This document shows positions 25,086 to 57,255 of a stretch of DNA of 64,000 nucleotides, piece by piece. The DNA is from Undaria pinnatifida (Eukaryota; Sar; Phaeophyceae; Laminariales; Alariaceae): the NCBI GenBank assembly GCA_012845835.1, contig JABAKD010000023.1, positions 9,279,840-9,343,839 on the forward strand. Direction: 5' to 3'. Position numbers and translations under genes: made by a program. Numbering within the stretch: the stretch's first letter is position 1; each line of letters begins with the position of its first letter. The notes below the pieces were generated by a model. That model did no database searches. It had not been told where the DNA came from and saw nothing but the letters and a program-made list of their open reading frames with translations.

Positions 25086-25290
25086 TTTAGGTGTAGCTAC
25101 AGTAGCTATAGTAACTACCAGTTATTATAATATATGGTGAGAGTTGATAGTTAAACTTACAGTACCTACTAATTTGCTGGCGTGTAGTAGCTATAGTAGC
25201 TTTCATAGTAATTATAGTATCGAGTAGCTTTTCAAAGTAGCTATTATAGTAGCTATTATAGTAGCTGTAGTAAGCTAAAATATTAAAAAA
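25085..25290. repeat. TAGCTA array
   Basis: Imperfect TAGTAGCTATAG repeats that abut the tail of the next retroposon copy at about 25270-25300. Confidence 0.8.
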
Positions 25291-26520
25291 AATGAAAATA
25301 CACTCCAGCTGTGAGATCGAAGATTTCGTCGAAACTCATCTATGCAAGCTGTTTGTGATACTCCGATCGCGCGTATTACGAGTTGTGTGTCCTCATTAAA
25401 GATATAGGTGGGCGACTCCCCTTACAACTACAGTGTAGCTATCAGGGTCAACAGGATGATTTTAGTCAGTCTGTGCGCGGAAACTATAAAACCCGTTTCT
25501 GAGGGGGACAAAATCTGACAGCTGTGAAGGGGAATGTAACCTTTGATCAAGTGAATCTTGTAAGTCGAATTACCGGTGAGGGGGTGGGGCGGAGTTTTGA
25601 AGGACGTGGGGGCCTGGTTTTGATCAAAAGCGAACGGATTTGGAGGAGGGGGGGGGGGGGGGGGGAAGTGGGCAATTTGTGCATGTAAGCTATAAATCCT
25701 TTCGAGGGGATAAATCTGACGGTTTTGGCATCAGTATATTATTGGGGGCGGGGGGGGGGGGGTTGGGGCGGGGGGGGGGGGGGGGCGGGGGGGGCAGCTC
25801 AATATGTGCCTGGAAACTATACATTATTTTGAGGGGATAAATGTGACGGTTTTGGAAATAATACATCAGTTTATCATGTATATCCTGGCGTAAGTCGTAC
25901 AATCAGTGAGTAAAGAGAGGGTGGAGTGTTCGAGGGGGTGGGGTTGCGATGGGTTGGGGGGGAGGTGGGGGGTGTGGGGGCGGGGGGGGGGCGGGGGGGG
26001 GAGGAAGGGCTTTAGGTGAGGGGTTTGTTATACGTGTGGTGCTAGGTCTGGGCGATGGTGCGGGTGATGGGGAAAAAGGGGGCGTTCGAGGCGGGGGGGG
26101 GGGGGGGGGAACACAGCGGCATGGATGGCTCTCGAAAGATAATGAGGTGATATCCTGTGCGTGAAGTGTATATTAATGTGGCGGATTTTGATATTTGGTG
26201 GGGCGTTTGAGTAAGGGAGAGCAAGAGGGGGGGGGGGGATTTTTTAGGAGGTTTAGGTCACAAATAATATTCAAATACACTTCGGCTGTGACATCAAAGA
26301 TATGTAGCAGCTTGTTTTACGCGTGGTGCTAGGTCTAGGCGATCGTGCAGGTGGTCGGAAAAGAGGGGGCGTTGGAGGGGGGGGGGGGGGGGCGGAGGAA
26401 GGGCTTTAGGTGAGGGGTTTGTTATACGTGTGGTGCTAGGTCTAGGCGATGGTGCGGGTGATGGGGAAGGAGGGGGCGTTCGAGCCGGGGGGGGGGGCAC
26501 ACCTCGGCATGGATGTAATA
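25290..26520 (-). repeat. Abundant retroposon, long inverted copy plus extra module
   Basis: Tail ATACACTCCAGCTGTGAGAT at about 25300, then CTCCCCTTACAACTAC, the GGGGGACAAAATCTGACAG block, several G runs and the GTGGTGCTAGGTCTAGGCGA module. A related tail (ATACACTTCGGCTGTGACAT) at 26275 introduces another copy of the last module. Confidence 0.8.
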
Positions 26521-31429: not shown

Positions 31430-33050
31430 AGCTACGTATAGTAGCTGTAGGAGCTATCATAGCAACTATAGTATCTATTAATAGTAGCTATTATATTAAA
31501 AAAAATGAAAATACACTCCAGCTGTGAGATCGAATATTTTGTCGAAACTCATCTTCTTTGCAAGCTGTGTGTGATACTCCGATCACGCGTATTACGGGTT
31601 GCGTGTCCTCATTAAGGATGTAGGTCGGCGACTCCCCTTGCAACTACAGTGTAGCTATCAGGGTCAACAGGATGATTTTAGTCAGTCTGTGCGCGGAAAC
31701 TATAAAACCCGTTTCTGAGGGGGACAAAATCTGACAGCTGTGAAGGGAAATGTAACCTTTGATCAAGTGAATCTTGTAAGTCGAATTACCGGTGAGGGGG
31801 CGGGGCGGAGTTTTGAAGGACGTGGGGGCCTGGTTTTGATCAAAAGCGAACGGGTTTGGAGGAGGGGGGGGGGGGGGGGGGGAGTGGGCAATTTGTGCAT
31901 GTAAGCTATAAATCCTTTCGAGGGGATAAATCTGACGGTTTTGGCATCAGTATATTATTGGGGGCGGGGGGGGGGGGGTTGGGGCGGGGGGAGGGGGGGG
32001 CGGGGGGGGCAGCTCAATATGTGCCTGGAAACTATACATTATTTTGAGGGGATAAATGTGACGGTTTTGGAAATAATACATCAGTTTATCATGTATATCC
32101 TGGCGTAAGTCGTACAATCAGTGAGTAAAGAGAGGGTGGAGTGTTCGAGGGGGGTGGGGTTGCGATGGGTTGGGGGGGAGGTGGGGGGTGTGGATGCGGG
32201 GGGGGGGCGGGGGGGGGAGGAAGGGCTTTAGGTGAGGGGTTTGTTATACGTGTGGTGCTAGGTCTAGGCGATGGTGCGGGTGATGGGGAAAAAGGGGGCG
32301 TTCGAGGCGGGGGGGGGGGGGGGGAACACAGCGGCATGGATGGCTCTCGAAAGATAATGAGGTGATATCCTGTGCGTGAAGTGTTTATTAATGTGGCGGA
32401 TTTCGATATTTGGTGGGGCGTTTGAGTAAGGGAGAGCAAGAGGGGGGGGGGGGGGGGGAGACTTTTTAGGAGGTTTAGGTCACAAAAAAAAATTAATACA
32501 CTTCGGCTGTGACATCAACGATATGTATCAGCTTGTTATACGCGTGGTACTAGATCTAGGCGATCGTGCAGGTGGTCGGAAAAGAGGGGGCGTTGGATGG
32601 GGGGGGGGGGGAAGAAGGGCTTTAGCTTAGGGGTTTGTTATACGTGTGGTGCTAGGTCTAGGCGATGGTGCGGGTGATGGGGAAGAAGGGGGCGTTCGAG
32701 GCGGGGGGGGGGGGGGGGGGGGACACAGCGGCATGGATGGCTCTCGAACGATAATGAGGTGATATCCTGTGCGTGAAGTGTTTGTTAATGTGGCGGATTT
32801 CGATATTTGGTGGGGCGTTTGAGTAAGAGAGAGCAAGAAGGGGGGGGGGGGGGGAGGGGGGGGGGGGGGGGGGAGGGGGGGGGGGGGGGGGAGATTTTTT
32901 AAGAGGTTTAGGTCACAAATAATAATTCAAATACACTTCAGCTGTGAGATCAAAGATTTGTAGCAGCTTGTTATACGCGTGGTGCTAGGTCTAGGCGATC
33001 GTGCAGGTGGTCGGAAAAGAGGGGGCGTTGGAGGGGGGGGGGGGGGGGGT
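31430..33050 (-). repeat. Abundant retroposon, longest inverted copy plus two modules
   Basis: Tail near 31512, then a body nearly identical to 25290-26230 over almost a kilobase. Further CTTC(G/A)GCTGTGA tails at about 32500 and 32935 start extra copies of the GTGGTGCTAGGTCTAGGCGA module. G runs exceed 15 bp at several points. Confidence 0.85.
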
Positions 33051-50778: not shown

Positions 50779-51411
50779 TCGCCGTCACGGCATATTATAT
50801 GTATATATAATATCACGATTCAGCTAATGGCTCCCACATCTTGATTAATGAATGCATCCGGTTCCTGCGAGGTTAAAAAAAATCATTTTTTGATATTTGT
50901 TGGCCTCTCTCGCCCAATAGTCCATTTCACGACTTGAAACCACGCAAGTGCATTCATCACGTGCACTTTATGGCACCTACGAATGCAATGACGCGTTGCT
51001 CGTTATATGCCACCGACATGAACACCTTCAAATGAGTAGACCTCAGCCGCTGTGGTGCTGCCCAACATCCTCGGCACCACTCTGTATCTCTGTACTCGTT
51101 GTGCATGCTTCGACGCGCATGGACGTGACATTACACAACACAAACACCGCCACCCTATTTATGCATTCATCAAACGTCGTCACAACATGTCAAGTAGTTA
51201 CGATTGGCCATGCCCACTGCAGATTACAGCATTGAGATGCCCCATGCCCGCTGCCGCATACGAGCAAATATGCGGATTTTCTGCAGACAACCTCGCCAAT
51301 CAAAATTCCGCCGCATATTATGTTTACCCGCATCTACACTACGCATCTACGCATCTACATTTCCGCCGCAATCATTCGCGGCACCCCGCCAAACCTCTAC
51401 TGCCCATTCCG

Positions 51412-52973
51412 ATGCCGTCAACACGACAATACTCGAAAGCTCAACAGAACCGACGCAACGAACAAAGGCGACTTCGACGCGCGAGGAGGAACGAAACACT
51501 CAATTGTCGCAGAAATTCACGTGATGGAAGGAGCGGCGAGGGCGCCCGTCCAACATCAACATACGTGCGTAGTCCTAACGTGTCCACCTCCATATCTCAG
51601 TTCTGGGAATTACCCCCGCTTTGTCCAGAAGACAACGAAGGACAAAGAGCATTTACGCTGGATGCGCGGAACGAAATCATCAACACCGCACAACGGGCTG
51701 CCAACATCATCGTTGATATTGCTTCACCATGCGAACACTGCGGTGCTCAGTTGTTCAAAGGTGAGTTTTTCAACATTTCATTTCGGGTCTTTCTTCCATT
51801 GCTACTTCCTGGCATATATCCATGAAACTGTCAAATTCAATCTCTCCTCACGCCGATCATTTATTATCGTCTGTTCCTATAAGACATAGACAACAACTAT
51901 AGTAGATGACATGCCAACCACCTGTGCTTCTACAGGTGAATCTCGTGGCATTTGCTGCAGTAACGGACAACTGGTCTTGCCACCACTACCACCGCCACCA
52001 AGAGAGTTCGTCCCACTTTATGAAGGGAACGCGGAACGATTTCAAAGATTCCGTCGAATGGATCGCAAATATAACTCATGCTCGAACTTCTGCGCTATGT
52101 GCGTCGAAGACGGAGAGTTAAAGAAGATGTTTGGGCCTCATTTCCTGTCCGTTCAAGGAAGGTGAGACGTTTAGTCTACACACGGGAATTCACTAATGAT
52201 TTTTTGTTTATTACTCCAGCACAATTTTGCAAGAAATGTGCATGGACTGCGATCCGTGTCCTTACATATCGCGACTGCCACTCGATCATACCAACAGGTG
52301 TGCACATGACACTTTCTACTGCGAAATCTGTTCGTGCATCCTTATATTTGTTACGCGCAGGACATATCATAACACTCGCAAGAGCGATCACAGCAACATA
52401 CAATGGCTACTGCACGACCCGGCGTACACCTGGTGGTTCAGACGAAGTCTCCTCGTTGTCGTCGCTGTCGTGGTGGACGGCTTTGTCCTTCGACTTACCG
52501 TTACCCTTGCGCTTGCGCTTGGTGTTGGTGGGTGCGTTGGACGCGGAGGAGCCGCCCCCCTCCATGGGTTCTTGTTTGATGGGCTTGCGGATGTCGACGA
52601 AGGCGCCGTTGTCGAACATGTGACCGTGGATGTTCACATGTTCGACAACGGCGCCTTCGTCGACATCCGCAAGCCCATCAAACAAGAACCCATGGATGGG
52701 GGCGGCTCCTCCGCGTCCAACGCACCCACTAACACCAAGCGCAAGCGCAAGGGTAACGGTAAGTCGAAGGACAAAGCCGTCCACCACGACAGCGACGACA
52801 ACGAGGAGACTTCGTCTGAACCTGATCCTGAAATCATATCCATCGACGACGACACCGACAGCGACAGTTCCTCATCCTCTTCCGACGAGGACACGCCGGA
52901 TTCTGCATCGTCATCCGGCGAGGAAGAAGCTTCGTCATCCAGCGACGAGTCGTCTTCCGATGACGAAGATTGA
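51412..52973 (+). CDS. Helitron-borne three-exon gene: zinc motif plus acidic tail
   Basis: Predicted exons are 51412-51760, 51936-52161 and 52220-52973 (stop 52971-52973). The junctions AAAG/GTGAGT...CTACAG/GTGAA (phase 1) and GGAAG/GTGAGA...CTCCAG/CACA (phase 2) keep one frame of about 440 codons. The start at 51412 is the best in-frame ATG before the Arg-rich region; the frame is open further upstream. Order: an Arg/Gln-rich stretch (SKAQQNRRNEQRRLRRARRN), then CEHCGAQLFKG/ESRGICCSNG (Cys cluster), then VLPPLPPPP and YNS. That order matches the N-terminal region of Helitron replicases. Exon 3 replaces the replicase with a Cys/His-rich stretch (CMDCDPCPY ... CAHDTFYCEIC), crosses a large palindrome, then has a nuclear-signal-like KRKRKGNGKSKDK and a Ser/Asp/Glu tail. 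It may be a degraded replicase fused to a captured gene piece. Confidence 0.55.
52435..52822. repeat. Long palindrome, 189 bp arms, 10 nt loop
   Basis: Arms 52435-52623 and 52634-52822 are reverse complements with only one or two mismatches (near the CCATGG site in each arm). The spacer is CCGTGGATGT. The right arm encodes FDNGAFVDIRKPIKQEP and continues into the acidic tail, so it is probably the original. The left arm reads its complement. The plus frame is open through both arms, and the minus strand has a 126-codon frame across the same arms. Confidence 0.95.
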
Positions 52974-53673
52974 TTCTACCGACGCACCTAAGCTTCTGTT
53001 TCACATACCGTAGATGATCGTCTTCTTTAGCCATCAACTTTCTTCCGGCTCATTTTCACCTGAAGTTTGTCATCTGCTATCAGCGTCTCAGTCGTTTCAC
53101 TTACAACGAGTTCGTAAGCTATCACACGTTTCGTGTACACTACGTAATTATTTCCAGGTCGACCTTTTCATGTTTTTTTCGCTTTTTTTCGCTGTAGCAT
53201 AGCAATCGAGATTTGCTGCTTTTTGCCCTTCCATCTTCGGGGCTTTTCCGATTCTTTCATTCACGATTTCGATTATGTGTTCGAATTAATCACCGTATCA
53301 TCTTCGTCGCTTTCTTCTTCACCGGGTTCACCGTCATCTTGCTCTCTTCACCATTGATTTTTATCACGCAGCTATTACACTGACTCCGTTACATAAACAA
53401 CAGTGCGGCGTCACCGATGTCTCTTTCCGAGTCATTCATCCGCCTGCCCATCCTGCGTACTTTCCATTGATATTTCATCAAAAAATTATACTGATTACAC
53501 ATTCATCGCCCCTGATACGGCCACCGCGTTTCAATTCAGTCATGCCCAAAGTCGCGGGGATGCATCATCGATGCCACTTCCTCCTTTAATAGACATAACC
53601 TGCATCCTCCTCTCTATTTCCCGCACTTCTCATCCTCAATTCATTGATTGACCTTCTTCGGGCGTATCTCCGG

Positions 53674-53716
53674 GTGGCCGTCCCGCCGCCTACGGCGGGC
53701 GGCCACCTTACCCTAG
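53674..53716 (+). other. Helitron 3' terminal hairpin and CTAG
   Basis: Stem GTGGCCG-T-CCCGCCG pairs with CGGCGGG-CGGCCAC around loop CCTA, then CTTACC and CTAG. This is the replication-termination structure of Helitrons. Confidence 0.85.
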
Positions 53717-53885
53717 TATATCTGTATTCCGACCGGAAAAATACAACGTTGACAACACGCAATACGTGGTTCCCCGATACGAGACAAACTCGCATGTTTC
53801 CACCAACGAATCGAATCGAATTCAATTCGATTCGTTCAATTCGATTCGTATTCAAAAAAGAAAATGTTTCGATTCAAACGTGTCC
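53717..53885 (+). repeat. Interspersed repeat R, right part, with TTCGATTCG array
   Basis: TGTATTCCGACCGGAAAAAT, ATACGTGGTTCCCCGATA and a GAATCGAATTCAATTCGATT array. They match in order the inverted copy at 56935-57075. Confidence 0.8.
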
Positions 53886-54870
53886 TTCGTTATTACAAAA
53901 ATTGAAATACACTCCAGCTGTGAGATCGAATGTTTTGTCGAAACTCATCTTTGCAAGCTCTGTGTGATACTCCGATCGCGCGTATTACGGGTTGTGTGTC
54001 CTCATTAAGGATATTGGTCGGCGACTCCCCTTGCAACTACAGTGTAGCTATCAGGGTCAACAGGGTGATGTTAGGCAGTCTGTGCGCGGAAACTATAAAA
54101 CCCGTTTCTGAGGGATACAAAATCTGACAGCTGTGGAAGGAAATGCATCAGTTTATCAAGTGAATCCTGTAAATCGAATACCCGGTGAGGGGAGGACGGA
54201 GTTTTGAAGGACGTGGGGGCCTGGTTTTGATCAAAAGGGGGGCGGGAGGATGGGAGGGCGAGGGAGGGGACGGGTGGGGCAGGTCAATTTGTGCGTGGAA
54301 ACTATAAATATTTCTTGTGGGGGGGGGGGGGGGAATGTGGCGGGGGAGGCGGGGGGCGGGGGGGGAGGGCTTTAGGTCGAATAGATGTAGGGGTTTGCTA
54401 TACGCGTGGTGCTAGGTCTAGGCGATGGTGCGGGTGGTGGGTGAAGGAGGGGGCGTTGGGGGCGGGGGTGGGTGGGAATTGCAGCAGCAGCATGGACGGC
54501 TCTACAGAGATAACGAGGCGATATCCAGGGCGCGGAAGTGTTTATCACTCTGGCGGATTATCGATATTAGGTGGGGCGTTTAAGCGAGAAGAAGCGAGGA
54601 AAATAAAATAAAATAAAAGGGGCGGGGGGGGGGGGATGACATCAAGGATTTGGTCGACACTGATCTTCGCAACATTGTGTGTGATCCTCCGATCGCGCGT
54701 ATTAATCATATATGTACTCGTAGGGGCTTGCTATACGCGCGGTGCTGGGTCTAGGCGATCGTGCGGGGTGTGGGGATGGAGGGAGCGTTGGAGGGGGGGG
54801 GGGGGAAGGGATGAATGAAAGCTAGGTCATGGATGGCTAGAAAGATAATGACGTGATATCAATTGATATA
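53886..54870 (-). repeat. Abundant retroposon, long inverted copy
   Basis: Tail AATACACTCCAGCTGTGAGA at about 53906, CTCCCCTTGCAACTAC, the GGGGGCCTGGTTTTGATCAA block, G runs, the GTGCTAGGTCTAGGCGATGG module, and a second module from about 54640 containing TGTGTGATCCTCCGATCGCG. Closest in order to 23100-24175 reversed. Confidence 0.8.
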
Positions 54871-55054: not shown

Positions 55055-55985
55055 AAAAAATGAAAATACACTCCAGCTGTGAGATCGAAGATTTCGTCGA
55101 AACTCATCTTTGCAAGCTGTGTGTGGTACTCCGATCGCGCGCATTACGAGTTGTGTGTCCTCATTAAGGATATAGGTCGGCGACTCCCCTTACAACTACA
55201 GTGTAGCTATCAGGGTCAACAGGATGATTTTAGTCAGTCTGTGCGCGGAAACTATAAAACCCGTTTCTGAGGGGGACAAAGTCTGACAGCTGTGAAGGGA
55301 AATGTATCCTTTTATCAAGTGAATCTTGTAAGTCGAATAACTGGTGAGGGGGGTGGGGTGGAGTTTTGAAGGACGTGGGGGCCTGGTTTTTCAAAAGCGA
55401 GCGGGTTTGGAGGGGGGGGGGGGGGGGGGGGGAAGGGGCAATTTGTGCGTGTAAGCTATAAATCCTTTCGAGGGGGTAAATCTGACGGTTTTGGCACTAG
55501 TTTATTATTGGGGGGGGGGGGGGGGGGGGAGGTTGGGGCGGCGGGGGGCGGGGCGGGGGGGGCAGCTCAATATGTGCCTGGAAACTATACATTATTTTGA
55601 GGGGATAAATGTGACGGTTTTGGAAATAATGCATCAGTGTATCATGTATATCCTGGGGTAAGTCGTACAAGCAGTGAGTAAAGAGAGGGTGGAGTGTTCG
55701 AGGGGGTGGGGTTGGGATGGGTTGGGGGGGAGGTGGGGGGTGGGGGCGGGGGGGGGGGGCGGGGGGGCGGGGGGGGAGGAAGGGCTGTATGTGAGGGGTT
55801 TGTTTTACGTGTGGTGCTAGGTCTAGGCGATGGTGCGAGTAATGGGGAAGAAGGGGGCGTTCGAGGTGGGGGGGGGGGGGGGGACACAGCGGCATGGATG
55901 GCTCTCGAAAGATAATGAGGTGATATTCTGTGCGTGAAGTGTTTATTAATGTGGCGGATTTCGATATTTGGTGGGGCGTTTGAGC
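55055..55985 (-). repeat. Abundant retroposon, near full-length inverted copy
   Basis: Runs from the tail ATAAAAAATGAAAATACACT at about 55053 through all modules to GGTGGGGCGTTTGAGC at about 55983, some 930 bp. Very similar to 27000-27840 and 31500-32430. A good reference for consensus building. Confidence 0.85.
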
Positions 55986-56934: not shown

Positions 56935-57255
56935 AGGACACTTTGGACTCGATTTTTTTTTTTCTTCATGAATCGAGTTGAATTCGATTCGATTTGTTTG
57001 AAACAACTTTTTTTTTTCTCTTATCGGGAAACCACGTATCACGTACTACTCTCAATGTTTTTACGATCGGAATAATGCAGATTTCGCTTTCATATCATCG
57101 AAGCCTTGAACTGCTCTCTGTGTTTTCGGTTGCTCTGCTTCTTCTTTGTCGTGGAACATGGCTTAGTCGAGCTAGTGGAAAAATTGGGCTCGCGACCGCC
57201 ATTATTGTTTTCAAGGCGCCACAGCCGCGGTACGTTCTGGAATGATCTGTTACAC
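56935..57255 (-). repeat. Interspersed repeat R, uninterrupted inverted copy
   Basis: Acts as the empty site for the Helitron. On the minus strand GATGATATGAAAGCG is followed directly by AAATCTGCATTATTCCGATC, where the other copy has the 2.94 kb insertion. Confidence 0.8.

Follow-up and report, generated by a model that had tools for sequence, protein, structure and literature searches.

A stretch of 64,000 nucleotides from Undaria pinnatifida (C30:9279840-9343839, hereafter the window) carries a Helitron that raises two questions: where the element begins, and how it came to encode an acidic protein and no replicase. A preliminary description, made from the letters of the window, had presented it as complete, with both ends fixed to the base. 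A search of the genome (511 Mb in 68 contigs) returned 115 matches to the reported stretch at E <= 0.001 (40 of 117 first-look candidates scored), and 36 loci (L009-L044, among which L010 and L011 are two halves of one element) were compared with the window copy. We conclude, with a probability of about 0.86, that the window element belongs to a recently active Helitron family, of which it is a non-autonomous member with internal rearrangements. It is a Helitron of the ordinary type with one feature outside the rule, a variable AT run as its 5' end. The features of the window copy are collected in Table 1.

Table 1. Features of the Helitron copy and its target site (window positions)
Feature	Position	Strand	Basis
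Inserted Helitron copy, 2,924 bp	50793..53716	+	Joined flanks aligned to empty relatives, closest C30:9276742-9277047; 3' end common to 83 places
Target-site DNA, TCGCCGTCACGGCA, earlier counted as element	50779..50792		Present in empty relatives L058, L060, L061
Left half of the A|T target, A	50792		Empty relatives
Variable AT-rich 5' run of the window copy, TATTATATGTATATATAATA	50793..50812	+	Absent from empty relatives; comparable runs in 96 5' units including the window
Conserved 5' core, TCACGATTCAGCTAATGGCTCCCAC	50813..50837	+	Genome pattern search
Rep N-terminal remnant (Cys-rich exons and short introns), broken after 52431	51052..52431	+	Exon limits by eye
388-bp palindrome, two 194-bp arms, 97.4% identical	52435..52822		Left arm in no other listed match
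Acidic protein, 112-codon tail of the family's second gene	52635..52973	+	98% identical to residues 212-323 of the spliced C32 gene
3' terminal hairpin, 35 nt, GC	53673..53707	+	DNA fold
CTAG terminus	53713..53716	+	Target T next, at 53717

The 3' end stands exactly where it had been placed, at 53716, with the hairpin and CTAG before it and T after it. The 67-nt DNA fold of this end reaches -23.9 kcal/mol, a value equalled by none of 200 shuffles, and a CTRR terminus with a subterminal hairpin is that of Helitron1. A genome-wide pattern search found 83 family 3' ends (72 without mismatch, 11 with one; the reversed control gave none), ending in CTAG in 75 cases, CTAA in five, CTAT in two and CTGG in one; the eight that depart from CTAG count against our reading. 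Among the 39 ends readable with their right flank in the loci compared, 37 have CTAG, one CTGG and one CTAT, and the following base is T in 38, the exception being a G in L020, which we also count against it. L025 lies outside this count, a small insertion ahead of CTAG breaking the pattern there. The proposed insertion between A and T is supported by these flanks, as well as by an A ahead of the insert at three empty sites, and it agrees with the A|T target of Helitron1.

The 5' end had been placed at 50779, which misses the boundary by 14 bp. Only the window itself matches from query base 1, the next earliest start among the 115 listed matches being base 9 (40 of 117 candidates scored); matches reaching the 5' end mostly start at query bases 12 to 28, and 50779-50786 is not common to the copies. 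The closest empty relative found, C30:9276742-9277047, lies 3 kb outside the window, aligns over the whole length of the joined flanks with 87% identity (left flank 90%, right flank 94%), and reads TGCATCGCCGTCACGGCA|TATATG at the join. Since this site, L060 and L061 all hold 50779-50792 uninterrupted, that stretch is target DNA and the insert starts at 50793, with an uncertainty of about 4 bp caused by TA repeats. The more distant relatives L062 and L063 are shorter at this stretch, but continuous without the element. An uninterrupted repeat at 56935-57255 had earlier been taken as a match to the two flanks; a related repeat does exist there (57254-56970), but across the join its identity is only about 67%, with 13% gaps, a divergence too great for an end to be placed by it.

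What the 5' ends of the copies have in common is TCACGATTCAGCTAATGG; the A/T run in front of it varies in length. The conserved core occurs at 140 places in the genome with up to three mismatches (the 100 listed are all exact; the reversed control gave 0), and the conserved TC (TCACGATTC) lies at 50813, inside the insert. Two further empty sites agree with this arrangement. The first concerns a three-unit array in C1 that sits within an abundant repeat (37 hit pairs with both flanks adjacent among the sequences compared), uninterrupted copies of which read CCGACCTA|TATCCTT, whereas the array reads CCGACCTA, an AT run, TCACG ... CTAG and TATCCTT. The second is L018, with the insertion point at ATGA|TATATCATATCGG; adjacent repeat units have ATGACATATCATATCGG or a close variant of it, and since they depart by one base at the join, the fit is less exact here. 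None of the three insertions has a target-site duplication. Because all three empty sites lack the AT run, the run is the opening part of the insert and starts at the A|T junction; TC, which in canonical Helitron1 elements lies at the insertion boundary, is found within the insert, by about 20 nt in the window copy, 28 nt in C1 and 14 nt in L018. Helitron annotation leans on a boundary 5' TC, and in this family that rule misplaces the end.

The same observations bear on a more conventional reading, in which the element is a canonical Helitron starting at the TC of 50813 and the AT run is target DNA of a family that prefers TA-rich sites. The 5' units read AATA|TC in 74 of 96 cases and TATA|TC in 14 of 96, that is A|TC, and the 20 nt past the 3' end are 71% A/T compared with 51% in the window, both as this reading would have it. 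However, besides the run being absent at the three empty sites, it stands between CTAG and TC in both of the head-to-tail arrays found, and at many tandem 5' junctions it lies between two element pieces where the parent sequence has no such run. We therefore regard target DNA as an improbable source of the run, and retain an insert that begins with it.

A pure A/T run of at least 9 nt precedes TC in 81 of the 96 5' units, window included, with a median of 16.5 nt and a range of 0-53; these units come partly from the same arrays and are not all independent. In most of the remaining 15, one or a few G or C interrupt AT-rich DNA, and as background a run of at least 9 nt terminates at 0.66% of window positions. 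The outer run of the C1 array has 28 nt and the two inner junctions 11 nt each. Among the independent insertions compared, every run is different, with lengths up to 43 nt, although copies of the 1.8-kb subtype are about 99% alike; these lengths include adjoining A/T bases of the target, so that part of the difference is target DNA. A tentative explanation, to which we give odds well below even, is that faithful copying does not account for the run, which would be newly made, or lengthened by slippage, on almost every insertion at an A|T junction. Rapid microsatellite slippage after insertion may also be the source of the differences.

Were the run indeed renewed in this way, it would be the integrated counterpart of the TA-repeat excision footprints of maize Helitrons, and 5' cleavage of this Helitron would act on a zone and not at a point. 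In maize, excision footprints of HelA2 have variable numbers of TA repeats (Li and Dooner, cited in PMC10095026). According to the excerpts of that source, the likeness lies in variable TA repeat numbers at a Helitron junction; the difference is that in maize the repeats remain at the site after somatic excision, whereas here they are found at the 5' end of integrated copies. In the portion of the open PMC literature searched, we saw no description of TC preceded by a variable AT run.

Some AT runs contain palindromes (TACTCCGGAGTA, TACTCCGTA, TACTCAGTA), which were considered as a sign of a 5' hairpin mechanism and rejected as such, similar strings being present at the ends of other repeats in the window and in the loci. 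We take them to be probable footprints of a transposon with a TA target. A separate observation concerns L055 (C61:11566100-11568600), whose outer 5' run contains TACTGAGTA and whose inner run contains TACTCAGTA, its reverse complement, either by chance or through a flipped hairpin.

The two arrays preserve the run within their repeated units. In C1, both internal junctions read CTAG, TTATATATATA and TCACG; over 1010 bp, units 2 and 3 show no difference, and unit 1 departs from them by 3 bases and 16 gap columns. In C61, the junction of the two units reads CTAG, TACTCAGTATATAATA and TCACG, and the units differ at 2 of 949 positions. As judged from these junctions, the arrays of three and two units are consistent with an origin from circles or rolling-circle replication, each unit including its AT run; they may also have arisen by tandem duplication.

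The 140 5' cores outnumber the 83 3' ends. When 99 of the 100 listed cores were paired with the 57 3' ends of contigs C1-C35, 50 of the 57 had a core on the same strand within 15 kb upstream, leaving 13 cores and 7 3' ends unpaired; no nearest core served more than one 3' end (0/50). Two or more cores belong to 15 of the 50 paired 3' ends, and two clusters have 15 and 8. The loci compared contain 41 tandem 5' junctions at 22 distinct positions, 21 of which fall in the first 204 bp after TC, the junction search having covered the first 900 bp only. An enrichment of A|T at these junctions was looked for and rejected, with 10 of 22 positions being A|T-compatible against 42% expected under random truncation in the same test.

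Several 5' ends per 3' end are already published for FoHeli of Fusarium oxysporum, for which excerpts of PMC5148889 give a model of nested insertion, with read-out then ending at the first 3' end. To the extent of those excerpts, the two families share several 5' termini for a single 3' terminus, a duplicated 5' piece typically of <200 bp, composite copies and possible circles; they differ in that FoHeli is Helitron2-like, has asymmetric terminal inverted repeats, and uses different termini and targets. Extra 5' ends could instead arise when strand transfer aborts and starts again at a different 5' end, as the crowding of junctions just after TC and their lack of A|T excess would suggest. However, the A|T test is lenient and of low power, junctions are visible in the first 900 bp only, and the nested-insertion model accounts for a single 3' end equally well. 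The data fit both models about equally, and we place abort-and-restart a little short of even odds.

The ten copies of the 1.8-kb subtype differ on average by 0.84% (range 0.39-1.27%; L036 and L037 share the same flanks), and the family has therefore spread recently. Two loci show what else has become of its ends. L045 (C22:24743600-24747200) has dense arrays of ~50-bp units made of the first few dozen bases of the Helitron and TA runs, a minisatellite born from the Helitron 5' end. C56:10769906-10863694 has seven family 3' ends, mostly about 14.2 kb apart and five of them with CTAA instead of CTAG, a series resembling a large tandem array.

The window copy retains the Cys-rich N-terminal Rep-like exons noticed earlier. 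The absence of a replicase core also held up, no HUH, TxTCN, Walker A or helicase motif VI pattern being present in the six frames of the element. A partner of the kind that the preliminary description had proposed to look for is a 13-kb replicase-bearing copy with both family ends (C32:2306836-2319912). Profile searches of its frames identified PF14214 Helitron_like_N (E 1e-18), PIF1 (8e-15) and Pif1_2B (3.5e-14), and its motifs include GLPHAHII (HAH), TMTCN, Walker A, DEA and helicase motif VI. The HUH Rep and SF1/PIF1 helicase that define the Helitron superfamily are thus found in this member with the same ends, and not in the window copy. The sequence of the window remnant runs on into the Rep core in L010, L013 and partly L015, L013 and L015 being two further loci that have kept pieces of the Rep region.

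At least one apparent in-frame stop interrupts the C32 Rep core; this copy may be dead, or the stop may lie inside an intron. The only close match of its helicase frame in the genome is itself, the other listed matches being 33-43% identical (best 87 of 448 candidates). C32 is also the only one of the 87 listed helicase places (7 short matches left out) with a family 3' end on the same strand within 15 kb downstream. With 87 of the 448 helicase candidates scored, a second replicase-bearing partner may be present elsewhere. A separate Helitron family was seen in dozens of copies with an open replicase frame of 1713 codons in many contigs, for example at C30:3591360 and C18:4201710.

The acidic protein, which had been described as unrelated-looking, is the C-terminal tail of a second gene present in the only copy found to bear a replicase, window positions 52635-52970 corresponding to residues 212-323 of the C32 product. 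The C32 second gene has at least two exons, with splice sites placed by eye and the acidic tail at its end, and residues 1-146 and 145-323 of the spliced product both map to the C32 copy. The protein matches no Pfam family even at E 10, has two hits in the PDB (E 0.12 and 0.44) that we take as chance, and no relative among the viral contigs searched. In all four copies with this gene, an 81-83% copy of the element's own 5' end (query 28-215) lies upstream of it, for example at C32:2317776-2317960, perhaps as a shared or duplicated promoter.

Gene capture by Helitrons occurs, and a protein with neither a Pfam match nor a convincing PDB match could be an unrelated host gene that the Helitron picked up. 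However, all nine genome matches to the structured part of the second gene (11 of 11 candidates scored) lie in four loci carrying family ends, one of them the 13-kb replicase-bearing copy. Such a capture is in our view even less probable than the canonical TC start considered above, and the second gene is better read as the family's own; a very old capture may still stand at its origin. What had looked like a Helitron without a replicase and with a foreign acidic protein is explained by internal rearrangement of a two-gene element.

The rearrangement can be followed along the window copy. Up to query base 1653 (52431) it matches the 5' part of the long copies; the palindrome then consists of the tail of the second gene together with its own reverse complement, and the normal 3' part lies beyond. 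The palindrome is a rearrangement of the front of the window copy: its left arm, read on the strand of the element, is found at no other place among the 115 listed matches. At its centre stands CATGTGA...TCACATG, which suits a snap-back event on single-stranded DNA, and such an event, judged from one copy, would account for the palindrome. No other inverted match was found inside the element at E 1e-3, a search in which repeats of 13-16 bp, such as the asymmetric terminal inverted repeats of Helentron/Helitron2, are below reach. As a separate point, the palindrome could be transcribed into a hairpin RNA feeding small-RNA silencing of the family.

Taken in order, the history of the window copy might have run as follows. 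The RepHel of the 13-kb C32 copy, or of a lost or unseen sister, would have acted in trans, as the shared ends suggest, nicking at an A|T that lies within the AT run or borders it. The strand would have been peeled 5' to 3' as far as the hairpin-CTAG end and inserted at A|T, transposition proceeding partly through circles that would also yield the head-to-tail arrays. Loss of its middle left the window copy with no replicase, and the palindrome would have been produced by a fold-back copy of the second-gene tail.

Much of this agrees with the canonical Helitrons Helraiser/Helibat1 as presented in excerpts of PMC4778049, with which the family shares a RepHel partner, the A|T target, head-to-tail junctions, a hairpin about 9-11 nt ahead of a CTAG 3' end, and AT-rich DNA near the left end. 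It differs from them in having TC off the insertion boundary, behind a variable AT run mostly of about 10-50 nt. A second gene beside RepHel is also known from plant Helitrons with an extra gene for a single-strand-binding protein (Mothra, in the accessible text of PMC4683698), whereas the second protein of the present family has no Pfam match that would liken it to such a protein. The single replicase-bearing copy found, the many near-identical derivatives and the three empty sites that can be read make the family a natural test bed for the site of the RepHel nick, the origin of TA repeats at Helitron junctions and the accumulation of extra 5' ends.

Finally, a very abundant repeat ending in ...CTGGAGTGTATTTTAATTTTTATAATA occurs at window 53891-54114 and in many further copies, such as 25281-25505, 31494-31721 and 55056-55273. 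In several loci (L021, L025, L045), two inverted copies of this repeat enclose only short Helitron 5' pieces.
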